Assembly: GCA_016874735.1 (NCBI GenBank)
Contig: VGTI01000040.1
Location: 1 to 34,970, forward strand
DNA: 34,970 nt
Source of the DNA: Deltaproteobacteria bacterium
GTDB lineage: Bacteria > Bdellovibrionota_B > Oligoflexia > Oligoflexales > CAIYRB01
Reading direction: 5' to 3'
Shown here one piece after another: positions 2,272-22,758 of this stretch (positions within the stretch are counted from its first letter, which is position 1; every line of letters starts with the position of its first letter). The position numbers and the translations under genes were made by a program. Under the pieces are notes generated by a model, which had not been told where the DNA came from, made no database searches, and saw only the letters and a list, made by a program, of their open reading frames with translations.

Positions 2272-5183
<2,912 letters not shown>

Positions 5184-5325
5184 ACGCCGTCGACTCTCTA
5201 CCTGGAAGAACCAAAAAAGTTCGTCGGGATTCTGTTGTGGAATTCCCTACTCCAGGTGGAAGCTGAAGAATCCCAGAATTGACTTGTTCTTGAACATTAA
5301 CGATACAGTTGCCAAATATTCAGTT

Positions 5326-5440
5326 TGGCTGTGTCTCTAGCGAAGAGGAAATACCCGTTCCCATCCCGAACACGGAAGTCAAGCTCTTCTGCGGCAATGG
5401 TACTGCTCTTTTAAGAGTGGGAGAGTAGCACGATGCAGCC
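5326..5440 (+). rRNA. rrf: 5S ribosomal RNA
   Basis: This 115-nt gene has the conserved CCCATCCCGAACACGGAAGT block (5361-5380) and the GGGAGAGTAGCACG segment (5419-5432). The ends TGGCTG and CAGCC pair to form helix I. It follows 23S by about 140 nt and precedes a strong terminator, so it is the last gene of the operon. Exact ends are estimated from helix I. Confidence 0.93.
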
Positions 5441-5449
5441 TTAAAAAAC

Positions 5450-13031: not shown

Positions 13032-14360
13032 ATGTCCCGCATTGTGTGTAAATTTGGTGGCACCAGTCTTGCCGATGCAGCGCAGTTCAAAAAAGTTCGC
13101 GCTATTATTGAGGCTGACAAGAGGCGTTCCGTTGTTGTGCCCTCGGCGCCTGGCAAGCGCACGCCGGCCGATGCTAAACTTACCGATCTCCTTTATCTGT
13201 GCCAACAGAGTGCCGAGGTGGCTACCGACTTTACCCCAAGCTTCGAGCGTGTGCGCGAGCGTTTCCTCGAAATTGAGCGGGACCTCGGAGTCAAAGCCAA
13301 CATGACCCAGCATCTAGAGGATCTGCGCGCTGCTCTCCTGCGTGGGGTTAGCAAGGACTTCGTGGCGTCGCGTGGTGAATACCTAAATGGTCTCATCATG
13401 GCAGCTTATCTCGATGCTGAATTTATAGAGCCGGCGGAATTTATTTTGATAAGTGCTAACGGTGGGGTGCAAGACGAAACCTACCGCTTACTTGGTGAGC
13501 GGCTGGCGCGCCAGGATCAGCGCTACGTTGTGCCGGGTTTTTACGGTCGCGACGCCAAGGGTGACATTAAGACCTTCTCTCGTGGTGGCTCCGATATCTC
13601 TGGAGCTATCGTGGCCCGTGCCATTAACGCCGCAGTTTACGAGAATTGGACGGATGTTTCCGGACTTTTGATGACCGATCCTCGGATCGTCGCCAATGCT
13701 AAGCCGATGGCCGAGGCCACTTACGCTGAAATTCGCGAGTTATCGTATATGGGCGCTACGGTGCTGCATGACGAGGCTATTGCCCCGGTAAGGCAGGTCG
13801 GCATTCCGATCTGTATCAAGAACACCAATGCTCCGACGCATCCAGGTACGACGATTGTCCGCAAGTTGAGCGAGGAGATCGAAAAATCCACTGAAATTGC
13901 GGGTATCGCTGGCAAGAAAAACTTCGCGATGATCAATATCGAGAAAAACCTCATGAATAAAGAGGTAGGCTTCGCGTGTCGGCTTCTTGGAATTCTCGAG
14001 CGTCACGGCGTCAGTGTGGAGCACTGTCCATCAGCAATCGATAGCATGAGCGTTATCATGGAGGCGCAGCAGATCGAGGGCAAGGTCGACTTTATTCTAG
14101 ACGAGATTCGCGGATCGCTCAAACCAGATCGCCTCGAGCTGGAAAAGCAAATCGCACTCATTGCCGTCGTCGGTGAAGGCATGGCCAAGACCGTTGGTAT
14201 AGCAGCTAAAGTATTCACGGCCCTTCGTGATGCCAAAGTTAATGTCAGACTAATCAATCAGGGTGCCAGCGAGCTGAATATCATCGTCGGTGTAGCTCCC
14301 GAGGATTACGAGAAATCTGTCAAGGCGCTTTATGACGCTTTTGTAAGCACGAGTTGTTGA
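13032..14360 (+). CDS. lysC: aspartate kinase (aspartokinase)
   Basis: This 442-residue enzyme phosphorylates aspartate, the first step towards lysine/diaminopimelate, threonine and methionine. The N-terminal kinase motif KFGGTSLADA (7-16) and the FSRGGSDISGA substrate/ATP site are clear. Two C-terminal ACT domains (about residues 305-440) are expected to bind feedback inhibitors; the second ends with NQGASELNIIVGV, the classic effector-site motif. Length fits monofunctional aspartokinases. AAAGG lies 7 nt before the ATG. It stands alone on the plus strand, divergent from the permease operon. Its last 31 bp overlap the convergent methyltransferase gene. Which amino acid inhibits it cannot be read from sequence. 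Confidence 0.95.
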   Translation: MSRIVCKFGGTSLADAAQFKKVRAIIEADKRRSVVVPSAPGKRTPADAKLTDLLYLCQQSAEVATDFTPSFERVRERFLEIERDLGVKANMTQHLEDLRAALLRGVSKDFVASRGEYLNGLIMAAYLDAEFIEPAEFILISANGGVQDETYRLLGERLARQDQRYVVPGFYGRDAKGDIKTFSRGGSDISGAIVARAINAAVYENWTDVSGLLMTDPRIVANAKPMAEATYAEIRELSYMGATVLHDEAIAPVRQVGIPICIKNTNAPTHPGTTIVRKLSEEIEKSTEIAGIAGKKNFAMINIEKNLMNKEVGFACRLLGILERHGVSVEHCPSAIDSMSVIMEAQQIEGKVDFILDEIRGSLKPDRLELEKQIALIAVVGEGMAKTVGIAAKVFTALRDAKVNVRLINQGASELNIIVGVAPEDYEKSVKALYDAFVSTSC

Positions 14361-14863
14361 ATGGCACGATTTTCGACTCGCAGTCGCACCCACATCATCC
14401 ATGCGTTCAGGGCGGAGAAGATGATAGCTGTGCGCCAAGAGCCAAAAATCAGCGGCAATGTGAACATCTCAGTAGCCACTACGACATAGTTAGGGTGTTT
14501 AAGGAACCGATAAGGTCCCTTGCTCACCCGCCCAGCTCCTGGCACGACAATGACCCGCGTGTTCCATTGTGAGCCCAGGGTATTGATGATCCACCACCGC
14601 ATCAGCTGGCAAGCGCCGGCGACCACTATCGCTGAGACTAGTACAACGCTGGGCAGGGAAGATCCATACATGAGATATTCTGCTACCATGGCGACCAAGA
14701 AACCTGTGTGCATGGCAACCATCCACTTATAATGCGCGGCGCCGTACTCAACACCGCCGCGCTCAAAACTCCATGCAGCGTTTCGATGCGAAACTTTGAG
14801 CTCGAGAATGCGCTCGGCCACCGTAATTCCAAATAGGACAAAAGCAACTAGCTCCAGCGACAT
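14330..14863 (-). CDS. ICMT-family membrane methyltransferase, BpsB/YpbQ type
   Basis: This 177-residue integral membrane protein has about four hydrophobic helices. Its C-terminal isoprenylcysteine carboxyl methyltransferase-like motifs are KGPYRFLKHPNY (115-126), Glu132 and RLRVENRA (160-167), which bind S-adenosylmethionine. It overlaps the end of the type III polyketide synthase gene by 16 nt. In Bacillus subtilis the same pair, BpsA and BpsB (YpbQ), makes alkylpyrones and then O-methylates them. By analogy this protein probably methylates a hydroxyl on the PKS product at the inner membrane. Tail-to-tail overlap with lysC is 31 bp. The family call is firm and the substrate is inferred from the neighbour. 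Confidence 0.83.
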   Translation of the reverse strand: MSLELVAFVLFGITVAERILELKVSHRNAAWSFERGGVEYGAAHYKWMVAMHTGFLVAMVAEYLMYGSSLPSVVLVSAIVVAGACQLMRWWIINTLGSQWNTRVIVVPGAGRVSKGPYRFLKHPNYVVVATEMFTLPLIFGSWRTAIIFSALNAWMMWVRLRVENRAIQQLVLTKAS

Positions 14864-15924
14864 AGGATGACCTCCGAGGAAAACCCGGGTCCCATGGCGA
14901 TCATGAACGCGTGATCCCCCGTGTCAACGGATGAGGTGTGGCGGCGCTCCAAGGTGGCCTCCAGGATGCCGAGTACGCTGGCGCTACTAAGATTGCCCAC
15001 CTTTGCGAGCATTTCTCGCGAAATGCTTAATGCTTGTTCGTTTAAGTCAAGTGCATCAGTGATAGCCTGAATGACTTTAGGCCCGCCCGGATGACTGATC
15101 CAAGTCCTGATGTCTGACGTTTGTAGCGATTGCGTTGCCAGAAAATTGCGGATATCACCGGCAAGATGCTCGTGGATAATTTGCGGCACGCCTGGATCGA
15201 GCAAAATCTTGAATCCATGGCCACCGATATTCCAGCCCATAATATGGCGCGTGTCTTCATAAAGTTTAGCGGATGAGGCCAGAGTTTCCATTTGGGAGTT
15301 TTTTGCCAATGGATGATCATCACCGACGCAGAGCACAGCTGCTGCACCGTCGCCAAACAAAGTTGACGATACAATATTTTCCGCACTGAAGTCATCGAGC
15401 TGAAGGGTGAGTGAGCAAAGTTCTACAGCAAGCAGTACAACCGCATGACTAGGCCATGCCTTCAAATAATCGTGTACTCGTGCTAACCCCGAAACACCTG
15501 CCATGCATCCCAGTCCAAACATCGGTATACGCTTAACGTCGTCACGCATCCCAAGAGATAGAGCTATCCTCGATTCAATGCTGGGTACAGCTAAACCAGT
15601 GATGGTTGTAAAGAATATGGCATCGATCGTCTTGGCGCTGGCATCAACCTCATTGAGGGCTCGAGTGACAGCATCGTTGCCGAGTTCGTGCGCGGATTTT
15701 ATGAAAATATGGTTGCGGTCAGTGAAACTACGCACGGTCGCATAGTTTTCAAGCGGCATGGCAAGATTACGTCCTTCGACACTAGTAGATTTAGCGAGCC
15801 GCTCGAGTAGAGCCTTTTCCCGGTCACCGAGGCCGCCTTTCCAGGCGCGGGCTAGTTCCGCGGTGATTTCTGATTGCGTGTATCGATGGAAAGGATAAGC
15901 AGTACCAATAGATACGATTTGCAT
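14848..15924 (-). CDS. type III polyketide synthase (chalcone/stilbene synthase superfamily)
   Basis: This 358-residue cytosolic enzyme condenses malonyl-CoA onto a starter acyl-CoA, in bacteria usually a fatty acyl chain, to give alkylpyrones or alkylresorcinols. The catalytic triad is complete: Cys140 in FGLGCMAGVSG, His278 in SHPGGPK and Asn311 in KVGNLSSAS. The C-terminal GPGFSSE loop is also present. Length fits the family. GGAGG lies 6 nt before ATG 15924. It is first in a two-gene operon with the ICMT-like methyltransferase, a known pairing for methylated alkylpyrones. The gene faces gloA across about 180 bp of divergent intergenic DNA. Chain length and product type cannot be deduced by eye. 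Confidence 0.93.
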   Translation of the reverse strand: MQIVSIGTAYPFHRYTQSEITAELARAWKGGLGDREKALLERLAKSTSVEGRNLAMPLENYATVRSFTDRNHIFIKSAHELGNDAVTRALNEVDASAKTIDAIFFTTITGLAVPSIESRIALSLGMRDDVKRIPMFGLGCMAGVSGLARVHDYLKAWPSHAVVLLAVELCSLTLQLDDFSAENIVSSTLFGDGAAAVLCVGDDHPLAKNSQMETLASSAKLYEDTRHIMGWNIGGHGFKILLDPGVPQIIHEHLAGDIRNFLATQSLQTSDIRTWISHPGGPKVIQAITDALDLNEQALSISREMLAKVGNLSSASVLGILEATLERRHTSSVDTGDHAFMIAMGPGFSSEVILCRWS

Positions 15925-16107
15925 ATCATGCCTCCAGTATTTATCGCATAGGTTATATTTGTACTTGTCGGTAGAAACGGTGATTTCTTGAGATATTAAT
16001 AGAGTCTACGGAGTTACTTTGTAGTTGCTTCCGGTGGCCGTAATTCATCTATCTGGGATTGATCCACATTCTCTCATTGCGTAAACTCCGCATCGGAGGT
16101 GAATGTC

Positions 16108-16527
16108 ATGCAATATCTACACGCGATGGTGAGAGTCCGTGACTTGAGCAAATCACTGGATTTTTACTGTAATCTACTCGGTCTTAAGGAAGTAAGGCGC
16201 AACGATTATCCCGAGGGTCGTTTCACTCTCATCTATCTGGCGACAGCTCCGGGAGAGCCAGAAGTCGAGCTGACCTACAACTACGATGTGCCTGATACCT
16301 ACGGCGATGCACGCAACTTCGGACATCTGGCTTTTGCCGTCGATGATATTTACGCGGCCTGCGCGCGCTTGCAAGCGGGCGGCGTGATTATTCGGAGGCC
16401 GCCTCGTGATGGACGCATGGCTTTTGTGAAGTCGCCTGACGATATCTCCATTGAACTACTGCAGCGGGGTAAGCCTTTGCCTCCTGTGGAACCATGGCAT
16501 TCGATGCCCAATGTCGGTACATGGTAG
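16108..16527 (+). CDS. gloA: glyoxalase I (lactoylglutathione lyase)
   Basis: This 139-residue metalloenzyme isomerises the hemithioacetal of methylglyoxal and glutathione to S-lactoylglutathione. The four expected metal ligands are present: His5 (YLHAMVRV), Glu54 (VELTYNYD), His73 (FGHLAFAV) and Glu116 (ISIELLQR). They match E. coli GloA His5, Glu56, His74 and Glu122. An upstream GTG at 16099 lies inside the Shine-Dalgarno GGAGGT (16095-16100), so ATG 16108 is the start. Loop lengths resemble the short Ni/Co-type bacterial enzymes. It diverges from the polyketide synthase, and no glyoxalase II is nearby. Confidence 0.93.
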   Translation: MQYLHAMVRVRDLSKSLDFYCNLLGLKEVRRNDYPEGRFTLIYLATAPGEPEVELTYNYDVPDTYGDARNFGHLAFAVDDIYAACARLQAGGVIIRRPPRDGRMAFVKSPDDISIELLQRGKPLPPVEPWHSMPNVGTW

Positions 16528-16649: not shown

Positions 16650-17354
16650 ATGATGAGAGCGCTTATAAAGTCAACGTTGTTTGGTTTAGTCCTGGCGGGC
16701 AAGGCCTCAGCCATGGCGCCGGCGGTATCTTGTAGTCCGGAACTCTGCCCATGGAATTTCACCACTGAGGTGAATACTGACCTGCCGCGCGAACAGCCTA
16801 ATTTGGTGCTACAGCGCTTCCCCTCTGATGGTATCGAGAACCACATGCCGGTTGGTCGTACTGACGAAAGCGGAATTCCTAGTACCGTCGAGGGTATCTG
16901 GTGGATGAATTTTAACCAACCAGGTGACATCCTAGTTACCTTTGGTACAGCCAGGTGGGATAGCGAGACGCGGACTGCTGAGGTGCCGGTGTATGGCGAG
17001 CGCACCTATAGTTTTCATGCAACGGAAACGGCAGCTAAGTCGTACGCGCCCCTTCTTAAGTCCCGATACACCTACTACGTCCAGTTCAACGAAGACTACA
17101 CTAAAGCCACAATCACTCCGTCACTTGTGGTGTTTGGACGTCAGGTCAGAGTGCCCAAGGCTGTGGCAAGGTTTACTATGGAGCTAAAGAGCGACGGTCA
17201 CTGGGTCAGGCAGACTTGGGTCTTAGGGCGCCGCCTCCCAGACTACGATTTACTGCGTGTAGTGGGGCCAGATTTAATTCGGGATGCCGCCTATGAAGAC
17301 TACCTGAAAGTGGCTGAAGAGGAATCATACCTAGCTGTACCAGCGGGAGAATAA
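16650..17354 (+). CDS. secreted protein of unknown function upstream of the catalase-like gene
   Basis: This protein of about 234 residues has a signal peptide (hydrophobic core LFGLVLAG, cleavage near KASA). The mature part is about 210 residues, rich in aromatic and beta-prone segments (EGIWWMNFNQPGD, TYYVQFNEDYTKATITPS), with two early cysteines in SCSPELC. I recognise no family. The frame opens at TTG 16644, but GGAGG at 16639-16643 is best placed for ATG 16650 or 16653. It ends 3 nt before the catalase-like gene, so the two are almost certainly one operon. It may be a periplasmic lipid- or product-binding partner, but that is only a guess from location. Confidence 0.72.
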   Translation: MMRALIKSTLFGLVLAGKASAMAPAVSCSPELCPWNFTTEVNTDLPREQPNLVLQRFPSDGIENHMPVGRTDESGIPSTVEGIWWMNFNQPGDILVTFGTARWDSETRTAEVPVYGERTYSFHATETAAKSYAPLLKSRYTYYVQFNEDYTKATITPSLVVFGRQVRVPKAVARFTMELKSDGHWVRQTWVLGRRLPDYDLLRVVGPDLIRDAAYEDYLKVAEEESYLAVPAGE

Positions 17355-17357
17355 CCA

Positions 17358-18545
17358 ATGAAAATTACCAGCAAATTAGTGAAAATCTTTGTGGCGGGTC
17401 TCAGTGTCTTTACTGCGGGTACCACTATAGCTACCCCGGATCTCACCTCTTGGGAGGAAGAAATTCCAGGAGAGGAGGAGAGCGCGCGCGATCTCGGCGA
17501 AAAATTAATCCGCGGCATGGAAAAAGACTATGTCAACAAGAGCAGGCGTGTCTTACGCGACGCTCATTCACGTGGTATCGGCTGTGTTGAGGCAACGTTT
17601 GAAGTCGATCGTGATCTACCAGTTCCTTACCGTGCGGGTGTATTTAAGGTTCCTGGCAAGAGTTACTCTGCTTTGATCCGATTTTCTAATTCGCTCGGTC
17701 CAGCGGGCGACAATGTCCGCGATGCGCGTGGCATGGCGATTAAGGTTATCGGTATACCCGGAGCTAAATTGCTGCAATCGCAGGAAGATGCGATGACCCA
17801 GGACTTTCTCCAGATCGATGCGCCGTTCTTCCCGGCGCGGGATGCTCTCGAATTTGCCGCGATCTTTGGTTTGAAAGAAAATCCAGCAAGCATTGCTGGC
17901 TTCTTGGCGGCTAAGCCGGTGCTGCGGGCGCGGGAGCTCAAAGCTCTCTTTGACCTGTCGTTCGGTAATCCTAATAACGGTAAGAGTCTCGCTGAACGCA
18001 CGTTTTTCAGTCAGACGGCCTACCTCCTGAAAGGACCGTCGATCAACATACCCATCAAATTTGCCTCGATTCCCTGTGGTCCGGTGACGCCAATGGCATT
18101 GGACGGGACTGGCGCTGAGTTGCGCAGCGATCTGGCCGCGCGTCTAGCGGATGGGGAAGTATGCTACCGCTTTGCGATTCAGGAATATAAGTCAGGTGTT
18201 GGATTTTCTGTAGAAGATGGCATGAACAAATGGGACGAAGCGAAATCACCGCTGCGTCAGGTCGCCACTATTCGGATACCGAAGCAGCAATTCCTTACCG
18301 ATGAGAAGCTACGCTACTGCGATAATCTCTCCTTCCAGCCGTGGCATGCACTGCCGGAGCACCGACCGCTCGGTAATATTAATCGCTCACGCAAGATCAT
18401 ATACGAGATGATTTCCAATTATCGTCACTTGATGAACCGCGAGGATGAGTCGCTCACTGAGCCGACCAGTCTCGACGCATGGCATGCACTTGAGTCAGAT
18501 GAGTATACGGATTGGCGAGATATCACCGTGCCAGCAGGTCGATAA
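17358..18545 (+). CDS. secreted catalase-related haem protein (y4iL-like family)
   Basis: This 395-residue protein has a signal peptide (about 1-26). It carries the reduced catalase core: distal His70 in RDAHSRGIG, Arg108 in IRFSNS, RDARGMAIKV (121-130), and proximal R-x3-Y as Arg345/Tyr349 after PWHALPEHRPLGN. This is the pattern of small catalase-like proteins. Family relatives act as peroxidases, allene oxide synthases or hydroperoxide lyases on fatty-acid hydroperoxides. The catalase motif GNNTP is replaced by QIDAP, placing Asp154 near the usual distal Asn. The gene abuts, tail to tail, the lipoxygenase/Tat-lipoprotein operon. A role in processing lipoxygenase products is an attractive inference. 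True catalase activity seems less likely but is not excluded. Confidence 0.85.
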   Translation: MKITSKLVKIFVAGLSVFTAGTTIATPDLTSWEEEIPGEEESARDLGEKLIRGMEKDYVNKSRRVLRDAHSRGIGCVEATFEVDRDLPVPYRAGVFKVPGKSYSALIRFSNSLGPAGDNVRDARGMAIKVIGIPGAKLLQSQEDAMTQDFLQIDAPFFPARDALEFAAIFGLKENPASIAGFLAAKPVLRARELKALFDLSFGNPNNGKSLAERTFFSQTAYLLKGPSINIPIKFASIPCGPVTPMALDGTGAELRSDLAARLADGEVCYRFAIQEYKSGVGFSVEDGMNKWDEAKSPLRQVATIRIPKQQFLTDEKLRYCDNLSFQPWHALPEHRPLGNINRSRKIIYEMISNYRHLMNREDESLTEPTSLDAWHALESDEYTDWRDITVPAGR

Positions 18546-18956
18546 TTAAGCGTCCTCAGTCTTTTCCTGGGTGGCTAGTCCAAGATGTTGATCCGCGCGC
18601 CGCACCCACATGCGGTAGTTGCTGAAGCGGATGAACTCTTGGATCACGTATCGCTCGGCTTCACCCTGTCCACGCGCTCCAACGAGGATACGCGCGGTTT
18701 CCTCCGGGCCTTCCGTAGTATAGGGGCCATAACGGAGATCCGCGATGAAGTTTTCGACGAGCTTTTGGTGCTCCTGACCAACGGCAAGATAATCGCCTAG
18801 AATCTGCACTATGTGGTCGTTATGGATCGCGGTCGTGTATGCGCATCCGGTCACCGATCTCAGGCTCGCCAATGTCGTCGCCGTCACACAGGTAGACGAG
18901 AGAAAATCGCGCCTATTTAACGTAGCGATTGGCTCATGGATAGTTAATTTTGGCAT
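18546..18956 (-). CDS. small Tat-exported lipoprotein encoded next to the lipoxygenase
   Basis: This 136-residue protein starts at ATG with AGGAG 6 nt upstream. A twin-arginine motif N-R-R-D-F-L-S (14-20) is followed by a mild hydrophobic region and a lipobox-like V-T-G-C at Cys38, so it is probably exported folded by Tat and then lipidated. The mature part is helical and charged, about 100 residues, with no family I recognise. It begins 18 nt after the lipoxygenase ends and is certainly in the same operon. Small Tat-signal partners often carry a signal-less enzyme across the membrane, which would suit the lipoxygenase. That is inference. Its stop codon abuts the catalase-like stop codon. Confidence 0.75.
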   Translation of the reverse strand: MPKLTIHEPIATLNRRDFLSSTCVTATTLASLRSVTGCAYTTAIHNDHIVQILGDYLAVGQEHQKLVENFIADLRYGPYTTEGPEETARILVGARGQGEAERYVIQEFIRFSNYRMWVRRADQHLGLATQEKTEDA

Positions 18957-18974
18957 AGGTGACTCCTGCGTTTT

Positions 18975-20735
18975 TTAGATGTTGATGCTCTTTGGAATGC
19001 GTGAGGGTCTTAGGTGGGGGTAAGTGAATACTCTAGACTTATCGCGCTCGCTAATGATCGCTTCGACTTCTTTGAGATTTCGCTCGAAATTGCTGATGGC
19101 TGCCTTAACGGCGTCGCTGTCTAAGTCAAAAGTCAGAGCATAATTACCAAGCTTGTTGAAGTAGATATCGCCAAGAAACTCAAGAGCCATCTGCGAAGTG
19201 CAGGCGACCTCTATGGGCGGGAGGAAATTTAAATAGTCCTCCTCTGTGTGCGAGTTGCCCGTGATCTCTGGGATAAAACCAGCGAGAGGTGCCGCTGGCA
19301 TGTAGGCCATGTCCGTCTTTTGTGGGAAGTTCACCGCAGCGTGCTGAGGACCCGCAGTAAAAATAATCATGGTGACGAGGTCTATGAGCTCAGCTTTAGA
19401 TGTAATGCCGGTGTTATTGAGGATAAAGTTTTTGATCGCACCACCATGATCCGAAGCAATCTCAGCCGCCCATTGTTGTAGCTCGGTGTCGCCCTTTACG
19501 TTGTCGTCGCTAGTGTAAAAACAAGAGATAAATTCCTGAACCCAAGCATTGATGGTATGCCATACGAGTAAAGCATCGTCACGATAAGGGTAGTAGGGTA
19601 GTGCCTTGGTGTCATCGAGGCCCCGACTTTTCAACCGCTGTGGTAGGTAGTTGGCACGGAAGTCGAAATTTAATCGCGCTGCAGCCGCGAGTTCCTTGAT
19701 GTCGTCGAGTTGGCTACCGGTCATAATATCGAACGGCTTATTCGGTTGCAGGAGCCATGCGAATGCTAGGTTATTGATCTGTAGCGTTCCTTCGCCATGG
19801 TGAAAAAAGAGCGCGTACAGAGGATGTCGATGACTCAATTGGCGATAGGTGGCAATGACAATAGGCTCGAGAATCAGATGGGTTTCGGCCAAGTGGGCGA
19901 CGGCCTCATGGTGATTGCCGTACGCTACCATGACCATGCCCTTAGCAATTTGCCAGGACCATCCGTCAGCTGGGGTATAGATGTCGCGCCCCTCGCTCTC
20001 CTGTCCCAGTTGTATAGCGAAAGGTTGCATAAGCCCACCTGACTTAGGCACGGCAAAGGCACAGATGGGCTTGTAGATGTATTTGGGGCAGTTGTAATGC
20101 CTGCCGTCGCGGAGCTTCGCAAGGGCTTTAAAATCAGCAAGGTAGATACGCCCTTCCCCAATAGCCTGGTTTAGATCATCATTGGCAAAGTCAGCGAGTT
20201 GGGCCAAATGCGACTGATTGATCGGGAAGTCTGTCTGGAGTTCATCTAGGCGCCTAAGCAGCAGCGGGTTGGCACCTGCGACAAAACCATTGGCAAAGGA
20301 CTCGTCGCTCATATAACGGTCAGCGATGGCCGGCACCTCATGGTTGGCAAAAACTTGACGGTAATCGTCGATATGCTTAGGTCGCCCCCCATCTAAGGCA
20401 AACCCTAGCGTCGGGATGAAGTATTCTGTCAATTTTGGCATGTCTTTACGAATCAGATAGTTGGCAAAGTCACGCGTGGTGAGCGAGGGGATGGAATTAC
20501 TGAAGCGCCAGCCAGTGTTGGCAATCACTTGCTCGATATTTGACCGAACTTTAAAGATCGCTCGAGCGATCACTCCGTCCCACGCGAGATCGATGACAGT
20601 GTCCAAGATTGACGGATCAGCATTGAGTGGAATACCGGCGAATTTTGTGTAGCGATATTTACTGCGCCACTGACCGAGGCGTCGGCGACGAAAATCCGAG
20701 TCGTCATACTGCGGAATCACATGGTCTAATTTCAC
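18975..20735 (-). CDS. lipoxygenase (fatty-acid dioxygenase)
   Basis: This protein of about 586 residues inserts O2 into polyunsaturated fatty acids to give hydroperoxides. Counting from GTG 20735, all five iron ligands are visible: His281 and His286 (H-L-A-E-T-H), His465 and Asn469 (G-P-Q-H-A-A-V-N) and the C-terminal Ile586. LEPIVIATYRQLSHRHPLY and the GTLQINNLA segment are also classic. The frame opens at ATG 20756, but AGGAGG lies 7 nt upstream of the GTG, which is therefore preferred. There is no PLAT domain and no signal peptide, unlike secreted Pseudomonas LoxA. Gene order is lipoxygenase, Tat lipoprotein, with a divergent TetR gene upstream. Lipoxygenases are rare in bacteria, and positional specificity cannot be told by eye. 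Confidence 0.94.
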   Translation of the reverse strand: MKLDHVIPQYDDSDFRRRRLGQWRSKYRYTKFAGIPLNADPSILDTVIDLAWDGVIARAIFKVRSNIEQVIANTGWRFSNSIPSLTTRDFANYLIRKDMPKLTEYFIPTLGFALDGGRPKHIDDYRQVFANHEVPAIADRYMSDESFANGFVAGANPLLLRRLDELQTDFPINQSHLAQLADFANDDLNQAIGEGRIYLADFKALAKLRDGRHYNCPKYIYKPICAFAVPKSGGLMQPFAIQLGQESEGRDIYTPADGWSWQIAKGMVMVAYGNHHEAVAHLAETHLILEPIVIATYRQLSHRHPLYALFFHHGEGTLQINNLAFAWLLQPNKPFDIMTGSQLDDIKELAAAARLNFDFRANYLPQRLKSRGLDDTKALPYYPYRDDALLVWHTINAWVQEFISCFYTSDDNVKGDTELQQWAAEIASDHGGAIKNFILNNTGITSKAELIDLVTMIIFTAGPQHAAVNFPQKTDMAYMPAAPLAGFIPEITGNSHTEEDYLNFLPPIEVACTSQMALEFLGDIYFNKLGNYALTFDLDSDAVKAAISNFERNLKEVEAIISERDKSRVFTYPHLRPSRIPKSINI

Positions 20736-20840
20736 GGTAAGGCCTCCTAGCTCCATCTTGAACCATTAACCGATAGGTAGATTTATTCGAGACTTTTGAC
20801 AAGAAAACGTGCAAGATAGGCATGATTTTGTACTCACAAA

Positions 20841-20864
20841 ATAAAATATAAATGTTTATTTTAT
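20841..20864. promoter_or_regulatory. AT-rich palindrome, candidate TetR operator
   Basis: ATAAAATA (20841-20848) and TATTTTAT (20857-20864) are perfect inverted repeats with an 8-bp spacer. They lie in the 150-bp gap between the divergent lipoxygenase and TetR genes, so binding there could control both. Low sequence complexity makes a chance palindrome possible. Confidence 0.45.
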
Positions 20865-20889
20865 AAGTGCACTCAGGAGGATGGTGGCG

Positions 20890-21642
20890 GTGGCTAAAGC
20901 ACCAAGTAAAGAGCGTAAAAATTCGCGTAAACCGCGGCTTACCGCCGAGGAACGCCGCCACGACATTTTAAATAAAGCGGCAACGCTGGTGCGGACAAAG
21001 GGCGCGGCCCGAGTGACAACGCGGCTCATTGCTAAGGAGGCTTCGATATCAGAGGCCTTGTTATATCAGCACTTTCCGACCAAGGAGGAGTTGTTTCGCG
21101 AAGTGTCCATCATCATTAATGCAAGAACCCCGTCCTTACACGAATATTTCCTGGATGCTACGCCATCGAGCCGGGTTTTGGTCGAGTACATTTATTTGGT
21201 GACGTATTTGGCACTGAGTCCGGAAATCCATACGAACGACAGTAAACTACCACGGATGTTGCTCGAGAGTTTGCTGGGTGACGGCAATCTACTTAGGACG
21301 CATATCAAGCGGCGCTGGAGTCTTATTGGTGATCTGCTGCGGAGTTCTTTAGATGCGGCACGCGACGCTGGACACCTTGTTGGCACAAGGTCAAATAACG
21401 ATGATAGTGTCGAGGTGACGAGTCTTGAGCTTTTTCTTTCGCACCAACTCATGGTGATGGCCCATTGCGTGCGCTTCATGGCCGAGCAGCCCATTGTCGG
21501 TGCGGAGCTGCCATTTCCCGAGACAGTTGAGCGGACTGCTATCTTCATGCTGCGCGGGCTTGGCTTTAAAGACGCAGTGATCAAGCGTCTCGGTCAATCC
21601 GATAAGATCCTAGCGAAGTTTGTGAAAAAGACGGCGCTATAA
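20890..21642 (+). CDS. TetR-family transcriptional regulator
   Basis: This DNA-binding repressor-type protein of about 250 residues has a Lys/Arg-rich N-terminal tail. The TetR helix-turn-helix spans about residues 20-65 and ends with the characteristic SEALLYQHFPTKEELF, followed by a helical ligand-binding domain. AGGAGG touches ATG 20881 directly, so GTG 20890 (9 nt spacing) is preferred; GTG 20884 is possible. Divergent orientation to the lipoxygenase, with a palindrome between them, suggests that it controls that operon and itself. A lipid or oxylipin ligand is plausible but unproven. Its last 6 bp overlap the convergent tocopherol-cyclase-like gene. Confidence 0.88.
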   Translation: MAKAPSKERKNSRKPRLTAEERRHDILNKAATLVRTKGAARVTTRLIAKEASISEALLYQHFPTKEELFREVSIIINARTPSLHEYFLDATPSSRVLVEYIYLVTYLALSPEIHTNDSKLPRMLLESLLGDGNLLRTHIKRRWSLIGDLLRSSLDAARDAGHLVGTRSNNDDSVEVTSLELFLSHQLMVMAHCVRFMAEQPIVGAELPFPETVERTAIFMLRGLGFKDAVIKRLGQSDKILAKFVKKTAL

Positions 21643-22758
21643 TTTCATCGTAGGGCAACGATGGTCGCCGCCAAATTCGAGCACGCCGTGGTTGTCGCTC
21701 AAGTGTTGCATAAGTTTTTGGCCACCAAGTAGATTTGTTTCGTAGGCATCTATCTCGATGGTTGCTTGGTAGTTTTCGTGCGCGAACGCCTTGACCCAGC
21801 CTTCTGCGGATGCTGTCGCGATGCCCACGAAGCCACTTGGTGCTGCCTTGGCTTTGACGTTTAGGCGACGCCCGGGATTGTCGATTGTGATACTGAATTT
21901 ACCCTCACAAGGAGCACTCTCACGCTTGACGGTGATGTCTTTCACCCCGGGCAAAAATACCCAGTCGAGAGTCTTGGTTTTCAGGCTAACACTCCAGACT
22001 TCCGGCTGGATCACTGGGACTGGAGCTGGTCCACCGGCAACACTGAGACGATTAGCGCCACCGTCGGTCATGGCGTGTAACCAGACCCAGCTAGCAGGAA
22101 ATGCTGAGCCGTAGTTTTTTTCCATATGGGATACTCCCGTACCTGACCAGGAACGGGATTCGGTGCTGAGCTGGTAGTTTGTAGTACTCCCGGTGCTATA
22201 GATAAACCAATGACTCCAAATAAATGGCAGTTTAGCTGCTGCGCCCTCTGGCCCTATCCAGGGGCGTGCCGGAAAAAGCGGCTCGGGCTTACCGAATTGA
22301 GCTCGCAGCCGCACAGACGGCGCGAGACGCAAATCAACCTCTGATTCAGTCATGTGCCCGACGCCATCAGCGCGCCACGAAAAATCGGCCGGCGCTTTAT
22401 CGTCTGGATTGCGCGTAACAGGCTGTCCTCCTGCCTCGAGAAAGGTTTTTTCGGGGAACACCTCGTACGTAACTGAGGTTCCCTTGGCACGGTCGCTAAC
22501 AACTAATGCCGCGTAGCCCTCTTTGGCACTATCGTTAAAGCTTATGCCTCGCCTTACAAAGGAGCCCACTATGGCCGCAACGTCGACCTGCCCTCGGTCG
22601 TCGACGACCCGTGTATACCACCCCTCAAACCAAGGCCCCTCACTTTTGTAGTGAGGATCCATCGGTGATTTTGGCTCGCTTACGCGCGGTGTACGACAGG
22701 CTGCCGTGACAGCGATGGATAAAGCACTGACAAGGCCAATGAGGGTCTGTTGGTTCAT
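21637..22758 (-). CDS. tocopherol-cyclase-like lipoprotein
   Basis: This 373-residue protein has a lipoprotein signal with lipobox V-T-A-A-C at Cys21. The mature protein resembles the tocopherol cyclase family (PF14249): WFEGWY (43-48), then EKNYGSAFPASWVW (213-226), corresponding to the EKNWG-FP-W-W block of plant and cyanobacterial VTE1. Tocopherol cyclase closes the chromanol ring of vitamin E. Here the family match is partial and no other tocopherol genes are seen, so it may bind or modify a different prenyl or alkyl lipid at the cell surface. It is last in the operon lspA-aminotransferase-this gene, starting 11 nt after the aminotransferase. Family confidence is moderate to good and function low. 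Confidence 0.75.
   Translation of the reverse strand: MNQQTLIGLVSALSIAVTAACRTPRVSEPKSPMDPHYKSEGPWFEGWYTRVVDDRGQVDVAAIVGSFVRRGISFNDSAKEGYAALVVSDRAKGTSVTYEVFPEKTFLEAGGQPVTRNPDDKAPADFSWRADGVGHMTESEVDLRLAPSVRLRAQFGKPEPLFPARPWIGPEGAAAKLPFIWSHWFIYSTGSTTNYQLSTESRSWSGTGVSHMEKNYGSAFPASWVWLHAMTDGGANRLSVAGGPAPVPVIQPEVWSVSLKTKTLDWVFLPGVKDITVKRESAPCEGKFSITIDNPGRRLNVKAKAAPSGFVGIATASAEGWVKAFAHENYQATIEIDAYETNLLGGQKLMQHLSDNHGVLEFGGDHRCPTMKL

Follow-up and report, generated by a model that had tools for sequence, protein, structure and literature searches.

A locus in an uncultured freshwater Oligoflexales bacterium can, with slightly better than even confidence, be read as a periplasmic oxylipin pathway, in which a Tat-escorted lipoxygenase would form a hydroperoxide, a haem enzyme would convert it and a barrel protein would handle the product. 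The locus lies on a 34,970-nucleotide contig (VGTI01000040.1 of assembly GCA_016874735.1), which was analysed as a whole and is referred to here as the window. It comprises genes for a lipoxygenase (LOX), a small partner protein with a twin-arginine translocation (Tat) signal (SMALL), a secreted catalase-like haem protein (CAT), a secreted barrel-like protein (UNK) and a TetR-family regulator. A preliminary description of this DNA had placed these five genes at 16650-21642, and the open reading frames (ORFs) found there bear out that anatomy. The genes, their motifs, their linkage and their co-occurrence across genomes were observed directly.

From these we infer an export route, an order of steps and the nature of the products. 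LOX, itself lacking a signal peptide, would fold and take up iron in the cytoplasm. SMALL, encoded by the next gene, would carry LOX through the Tat translocon, adding a lipid anchor in this case. Once periplasmic, LOX is expected to dioxygenate a polyunsaturated fatty acid, probably of exogenous origin, to an S-hydroperoxide, as family knowledge and the residue Ala331 indicate. Secreted CAT would then convert the hydroperoxide, a step suggested by recurrent linkage, by conservation of haem residues and by known LOX-catalase and dioxygenase-catalase fusions. Finally, UNK, which is co-operonic with CAT, may bind, isomerise or hydrolyse the unstable product, given that its gene is linked to LOX together with one or the other of two unrelated haem enzymes.

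The pairing of LOX with a catalase-type partner is already known from corals and cyanobacteria. In the literature searched, which included few subscription papers, we found neither the secreted Oligoflexales version nor a LOX-specific Tat/Sec family nor a common barrel family. Nor did this search find any publication joining lipoxygenase with Oligoflexia, in agreement with the preliminary description, which knew of no such report. The two LOX-specific partner families provide a genetic handle on the LOX product, on the next enzyme and on the exit of a signal-less LOX.

Lipoxygenase and its exported partner

LOX (18975-20756, minus strand) matches Pfam PF00305 over residues 138-574 (E = 6e-53; 180.8 bits against a cut-off of 23.6), and its closest solved structures in the PDB are bacterial 15-LOX enzymes (bacterial arachidonate 15-LOX, 2e-97). 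All 15 homologues share the iron ligands H288, H293, H472, N476 and the C-terminal I593, and the gene had rightly been called a complete lipoxygenase with all five ligands. At the stereo-determining Coffa position, Ala goes with S-hydroperoxide stereochemistry. This position is occupied by Ala331, also invariant in the 15 homologues, and an S-hydroperoxide is therefore the predicted product.

The N-terminus of LOX enters a conserved [LI]PQxD motif directly, which leaves no room for a signal peptide. Other bacterial LOX proteins carry signals of their own. For example, an Oligoflexales LOX (L061) bears a lipoprotein signal, a Rhodococcus plasmid LOX (L194, 5359-7458) has the Tat-type signal NRRRLLG and adjoins a gene with an acyl-ACP thioesterase domain, and a Nostoc plasmid LOX (L193) has a Tat-like N-terminus. 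The signals of L061 and L194 suggest that bacterial LOX export by such routes occurs. None of the four plasmid-borne LOX genes inspected adjoins a gene annotated as catalase. Pseudomonas aeruginosa LoxA is an extracytoplasmic bacterial 15-LOX that uses exogenous fatty acids (PMC11011848). A P. aeruginosa LOX is 38.7% identical to the window LOX. LoxA has its own signal peptide, whereas the window LOX has none and is encoded with a separate Tat partner instead.

This partner, SMALL (18546-18956, minus strand; 136 residues), combines the Tat motif NRRDFL with a following lipobox-like SVTGC. It had been described as a Tat-type lipoprotein partner of LOX, which both elements support, but its membership of a LOX-specific family had been missed. 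At 18 of 19 Oligoflexales LOX loci, an exported protein of 100-140 residues is encoded next to or very near LOX. SMALL-type genes often occur twice per locus, flanking LOX with a Sec-lipoprotein gene and a Tat-signal gene, and family members mostly lie within 60 bp of LOX. Two same-genus genomes (G001 and G003; loci L070 and L073) carry LOX in tandem, as two or three copies, and SMALL proteins are encoded between these copies or next to them. A profile of the Tat-type mature domain finds many Sec-type members (1e-13 to 1e-6), a Sec-only profile finds Tat-type members (5e-12 to 1e-5), and among 7,421 ORFs the confident matches of both were confined to LOX loci. Judged by sequence, the two types of partner thus have a common mature domain.

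In a set of 56 relatives' genomes used for co-occurrence, the SMALL family is present in 13 of 14 genomes with LOX and in none of the 42 others (p = 7e-12, in a test that, like those below, counts kindred genomes as independent). The sole LOX genome without it has a very divergent LOX. Among 146 genomes of Bermanella's order, a Tat-signal SMALL lies 18 bp behind LOX in one Gammaproteobacterium that was absent from profile training; other LOX genes in that order have no SMALL, and the partner is not universal.

Export signals vary together with the partner. In Oligoflexales, signal peptides are present on UNK and on most CAT proteins, and the cognate signal-less LOX occurs with SMALL. In cyanobacteria, UNK begins at the domain itself, without a signal peptide, and no SMALL is present (these N-termini were read directly; the signal-peptide heuristic mis-scores internal Met starts). 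Taken with the signals of L061 and L194, this covariation argues that the Oligoflexales system is extracytoplasmic and that SMALL is a likely escort.

Tyrosinase MelC1 is a Tat hitchhiker subunit. SMALL resembles such subunits in its small size, its helical model, its Tat signal and its position next to the gene of a cofactor enzyme that lacks a signal, and the LOX-SMALL pair has the gene layout of a hitchhiker pair. The SMALL model is a small helical bundle with a helical mature domain. Another such subunit, the gamma subunit of FAD-glucose dehydrogenase, is a five-helix Tat protein required for folding and secretion of a signal-less enzyme (PMC6719666). SMALL differs from it in that there is no sequence relation, the enzyme is a LOX and a Sec-lipoprotein twin exists. 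Searches of Pfam and PDB profiles gave no match for SMALL and no homology to a known hitchhiker subunit. If it is an escort, LOX and SMALL would together represent a new type of Tat hitchhiker system.

It is somewhat unlikely that the SMALL-type Tat/Sec proteins are instead periplasmic activity subunits, iron-loading factors or LOX inhibitors, with LOX exported otherwise or remaining inside. A pure escort would need neither a second paralogue at the same locus with another export signal nor the two signal-less copies that lie away from LOX, next to an outer-membrane-like protein. However, known hitchhiker pairs are laid out in this way, with one mature domain attached to a Tat signal and encoded next to a metalloenzyme that has none (PMC6719666), and some other LOX proteins themselves bear Tat or lipoprotein signals. 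The two signal-less copies (L210:6217-8042 and L211:5182-7006) adjoin a secreted 440-residue protein that has no Pfam match and looks like a fatty-acid channel of the FadL type in the outer membrane.

A predicted barrel family linked to lipoxygenase and haem enzymes

UNK (16644/16650-17354, plus strand; first ATG at 16650) was delimited from the ORF list and homologue profiles and has no Pfam match. The signal peptide read from its sequence is MRALIKSTLFGLVLAGKASA. It had been noted as a secreted unknown protein; secretion is upheld by this signal, but UNK belongs to a conserved LOX-linked family that had been overlooked. Of the 56 relatives' genomes, 12 contain UNK, and 11 of these 12 also contain LOX (p = 3e-8). 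In three genomes (G030, G002 and G005) and at another locus in the genome from which the window comes, UNK directly adjoins the LOX unit, while further copies in the UNK-bearing genomes stand alone.

In cyanobacteria, genes for LOX, a cytochrome P450 and UNK follow one another on one strand at 27 of 39 loci, which is every scanned cyanobacterial locus with UNK beside LOX. Across 120 genomes of one cyanobacterial order, all five UNK-bearing genomes have LOX, against 33 of the 120 overall (p = 1e-3). The P450s of these loci resemble CYP152 peroxygenases and, weakly, the CYP74A allene oxide synthase. The I-helix of these enzymes has the sequence AGTAGTS and lacks the usual acid-Thr pair, an indication that they use peroxides directly. 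At three further loci (L203, L204 and L205), UNK adjoins another, very divergent P450-like protein. UNK therefore associates with LOX plus one of several haem enzymes.

The UNK model is beta-rich, consisting mostly of strands, and barrel-like (predicted local distance difference test score 80). Across 55 members, P79, G84, N91, D95, Y144, F148, R189 and Y201 of the core are invariant or nearly so, and this conservation suggests a defined site. UNK recalls plant allene oxide cyclase and lipocalin-type barrels in being a predicted barrel encoded beside LOX and a haem hydroperoxide enzyme, with a weak lipocalin-like fold match. There is no sequence similarity to plant allene oxide cyclase, as a search of the PDB with the UNK profile found none. 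The cyclase is not among the top 50 fold matches listed. A viral fold library search gave no match.

A bolder proposal, which we regard as doubtful, is that these genes encode a complete extracytoplasmic bacterial oxylipin pathway. It would have a dedicated Tat escort for a folded, iron-loaded LOX, with an anchoring lipoprotein twin, and a barrel enzyme, common to Oligoflexales and Cyanobacteria, that acts after a CAT-like protein or a P450 on their epoxide, playing in bacteria the part that allene oxide cyclase has in plants. Should UNK indeed act on epoxides derived from LOX, the three-step logic of jasmonate synthesis would also exist in bacteria.

Two loci (L177:5635-7737 and L176:5543-7810) encode exported proteins of 700-755 residues with a C-terminal UNK domain and an N-terminal part without detectable relatives. 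A catalase-UNK fusion was suspected there but was rejected, as PDB, Pfam and profile-profile comparisons gave it no support. The motif RRxTHPVG in these proteins recalls the distal His of catalase, a resemblance that is likewise unsupported.

The catalase-like haem protein and its linkage to lipoxygenase

CAT (17358-18545, plus strand; 395 amino acids) was assigned from Pfam and a homologue alignment. Its match to the catalase family PF00199 is weak (2.5e-8) and covers residues 62-176 only. R67, H70, R108, R345, Y349 and R356 are invariant among 14 relatives. In coral allene oxide synthase (cAOS), haem is coordinated by Arg64, Arg102, Arg360, the distal His67 and the proximal Tyr353 (PMC5617202). 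The corresponding residues R67, R108, R356, H70 and Y349 are all kept in CAT; the three Arg, distal His and proximal Tyr are the haem contacts common to cAOS and catalase. The signal peptides on CAT and UNK would place both proteins in the periplasm.

The coral AOS-LOX and the Acaryochloris catalase-LOX fusion likewise combine LOX with a catalase-fold haem protein that has these five residues. Unlike them, the window has a separate secreted haem protein with Ala and Ile in place of Thr66 and Asn137, the additional proteins SMALL and UNK, and an Oligoflexales host. A cyanobacterial fusion of catalase with a haem dioxygenase acting on fatty acids is also cited in PMC11719350, and a Calothrix locus (L119) has the same arrangement. 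There, the N-terminal catalase domain scores with the window CAT profile and the gene adjoins LOX, P450 and barrel genes; however, the hydroperoxide comes from an animal-type haem peroxidase, not from LOX, and no signal peptide is seen. In this strain (Calothrix PCC 7103, L119:11495-14341), the gene for the catalase-like domain fused to the animal haem peroxidase is convergent with the LOX-P450-UNK operon.

A survey of 80 named LOX loci from one genome scan placed a CAT relative no more than two genes from LOX in two species of Lentzea, an actinomycete metagenome-assembled genome (MAG), Fodinicola (with a broken frame), Candidatus Manganitrophus, a Pyrinomonadaceae MAG and Calothrix PCC 7103. 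In Oligoflexales, such adjacency was found in one further genome (G039) besides the window. LOX beside a CAT-like gene thus spans at least five phyla, as Actinomycetota, Nitrospirota, Acidobacteriota and Cyanobacteriota are represented in addition to Oligoflexales. About 7 of some 25 CAT-family genes in 50 LOX genomes are neighbours of LOX, against, by a rough estimate, about 0.06 expected at random. On the CAT tree, the LOX-linked label has to change at least three times, and the window and G039 fall into separate supported clades; the linkage therefore arose repeatedly.

These data bear on whether LOX and SMALL form one unit and CAT is an ordinary periplasmic H2O2 peroxidase that lies alongside by chance. 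Most CAT-family genes in relatives are not beside LOX, 10 of 21 CAT-bearing genomes have no LOX and the co-occurrence is modest (p = 4e-4), as such a reading would expect. It is nevertheless very unlikely: adjacency in five phyla, far above the estimated random expectation, led us to reject chance, at least three linkages are independent, and fusions of LOX or a dioxygenase with catalase are known (PMC11719350; L119).

Several observations weigh against the periplasmic oxylipin pathway. In CAT, Ala69 precedes the distal His where cAOS has Thr66, and Ile153 stands at the position of cAOS Asn137 and the catalase distal Asn (in a register taken from alignments with solved catalases), where other family members mostly have I or V. 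No second genome seen has all five genes, not even within the genus, and same-genus CAT genes lie elsewhere, beside a small Cys lipoprotein different from SMALL. The SMALL model has no fold match, and the matches of the UNK model among the top 50 PDB entries, mostly lipocalin-like, are weak (E at least 0.04; template-modelling score below 0.45). The treatment of kindred genomes as independent also counts here, as does the fact that the host is known from a fragmented assembly only.

The haem pocket of CAT is intact yet without cAOS-like tuning residues, and the replacement of Thr66 and Asn137 by Ala69 and Ile153 means that allene oxide formation by CAT cannot be claimed. Nor is CAT a typical monofunctional haem catalase, as His and Tyr are kept but the distal Asn is absent and the full-length core is unmatched. 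Of its structural relatives, the mini-catalase-like protein 3e4w, a peroxidase, scores best. These features, together with a possible TetR control that suits an inducible system, could point to lipid-peroxide control, in which a CAT peroxidase would reduce hydroperoxides from LOX or autoxidation to hydroxy acids safely, rather than to allene oxides or aldehydes, and UNK would be a fatty-acid chaperone. This is unlikely, however: UNK also follows LOX and P450 in cyanobacteria, where P450s without the acid-Thr pair look peroxide-using, which favours rearrangement chemistry.

The preliminary description had offered a two-enzyme oxylipin route or, alternatively, lipid-peroxide detoxification, and had looked to conservation of the five genes in relatives. 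The route gains from the recurrence of the LOX-CAT pair in at least five phyla, its repeated origin and the retained haem residues, but not in its allene oxide chemistry. Detoxification is a less natural reading because LOX itself produces hydroperoxides. As for conservation, gene pairs recur, but the block as a whole does not.

At four loci in same-order genomes (L058, L065, L076 and L080), a conserved Cys lipoprotein of about 90 residues (WxxACxxEL.NP...DCxxAYPxI) is encoded just upstream of CAT; in the window, UNK occupies this slot.

Locus layout, regulation and neighbouring genes

The UNK and CAT genes are separated by 3 bp and the LOX and SMALL genes by 18 bp, and the two operons abut tail-to-tail at 18545/18546 with no spacer. 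The TetR-family gene (20881-21642, plus strand; PF00440 at 4e-14) lies 124 bp from LOX and is divergent from it. Convergent operons with a divergent TetR gene, as first described, are thus confirmed by ORF positions and strands. TetR is a candidate regulator of the LOX operon. The best palindrome between the two genes, an imperfect inverted repeat without strand at 20829-20871 (17-nucleotide arms, 82%), is a candidate TetR operator, but it is not significant, its score being reached in 27 of 300 shuffles. The TetR-LOX linkage is not kept in the relatives examined.

The source genome, an Oligoflexales MAG, comprises 4.65 Mb in 166 contigs, of which the window is contig 40, and several relatives' MAGs stem from lakes or lake sediment, judging by their names. 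A complete rRNA operon lies near the contig end (381-5441; 16S at 381-1916, 23S at 2275-5184 and 5S at 5327-5441), with no tRNA genes in its spacer. A glyoxalase-fold gene (16099-16527) is encoded on the UNK strand 116 bp upstream, and nothing ties it to the system. Further upstream, a type III polyketide synthase gene (DpgA-like) overlaps an ICMT-type methyltransferase gene (14330-15924), an arrangement like that of phenolic-lipid (alkylresorcinol) gene pairs. On the other side, a tocopherol-cyclase-like (PF14249) lipoprotein gene (21637-22758) lies tail-to-tail with TetR and may encode a further lipid-related calycin protein.

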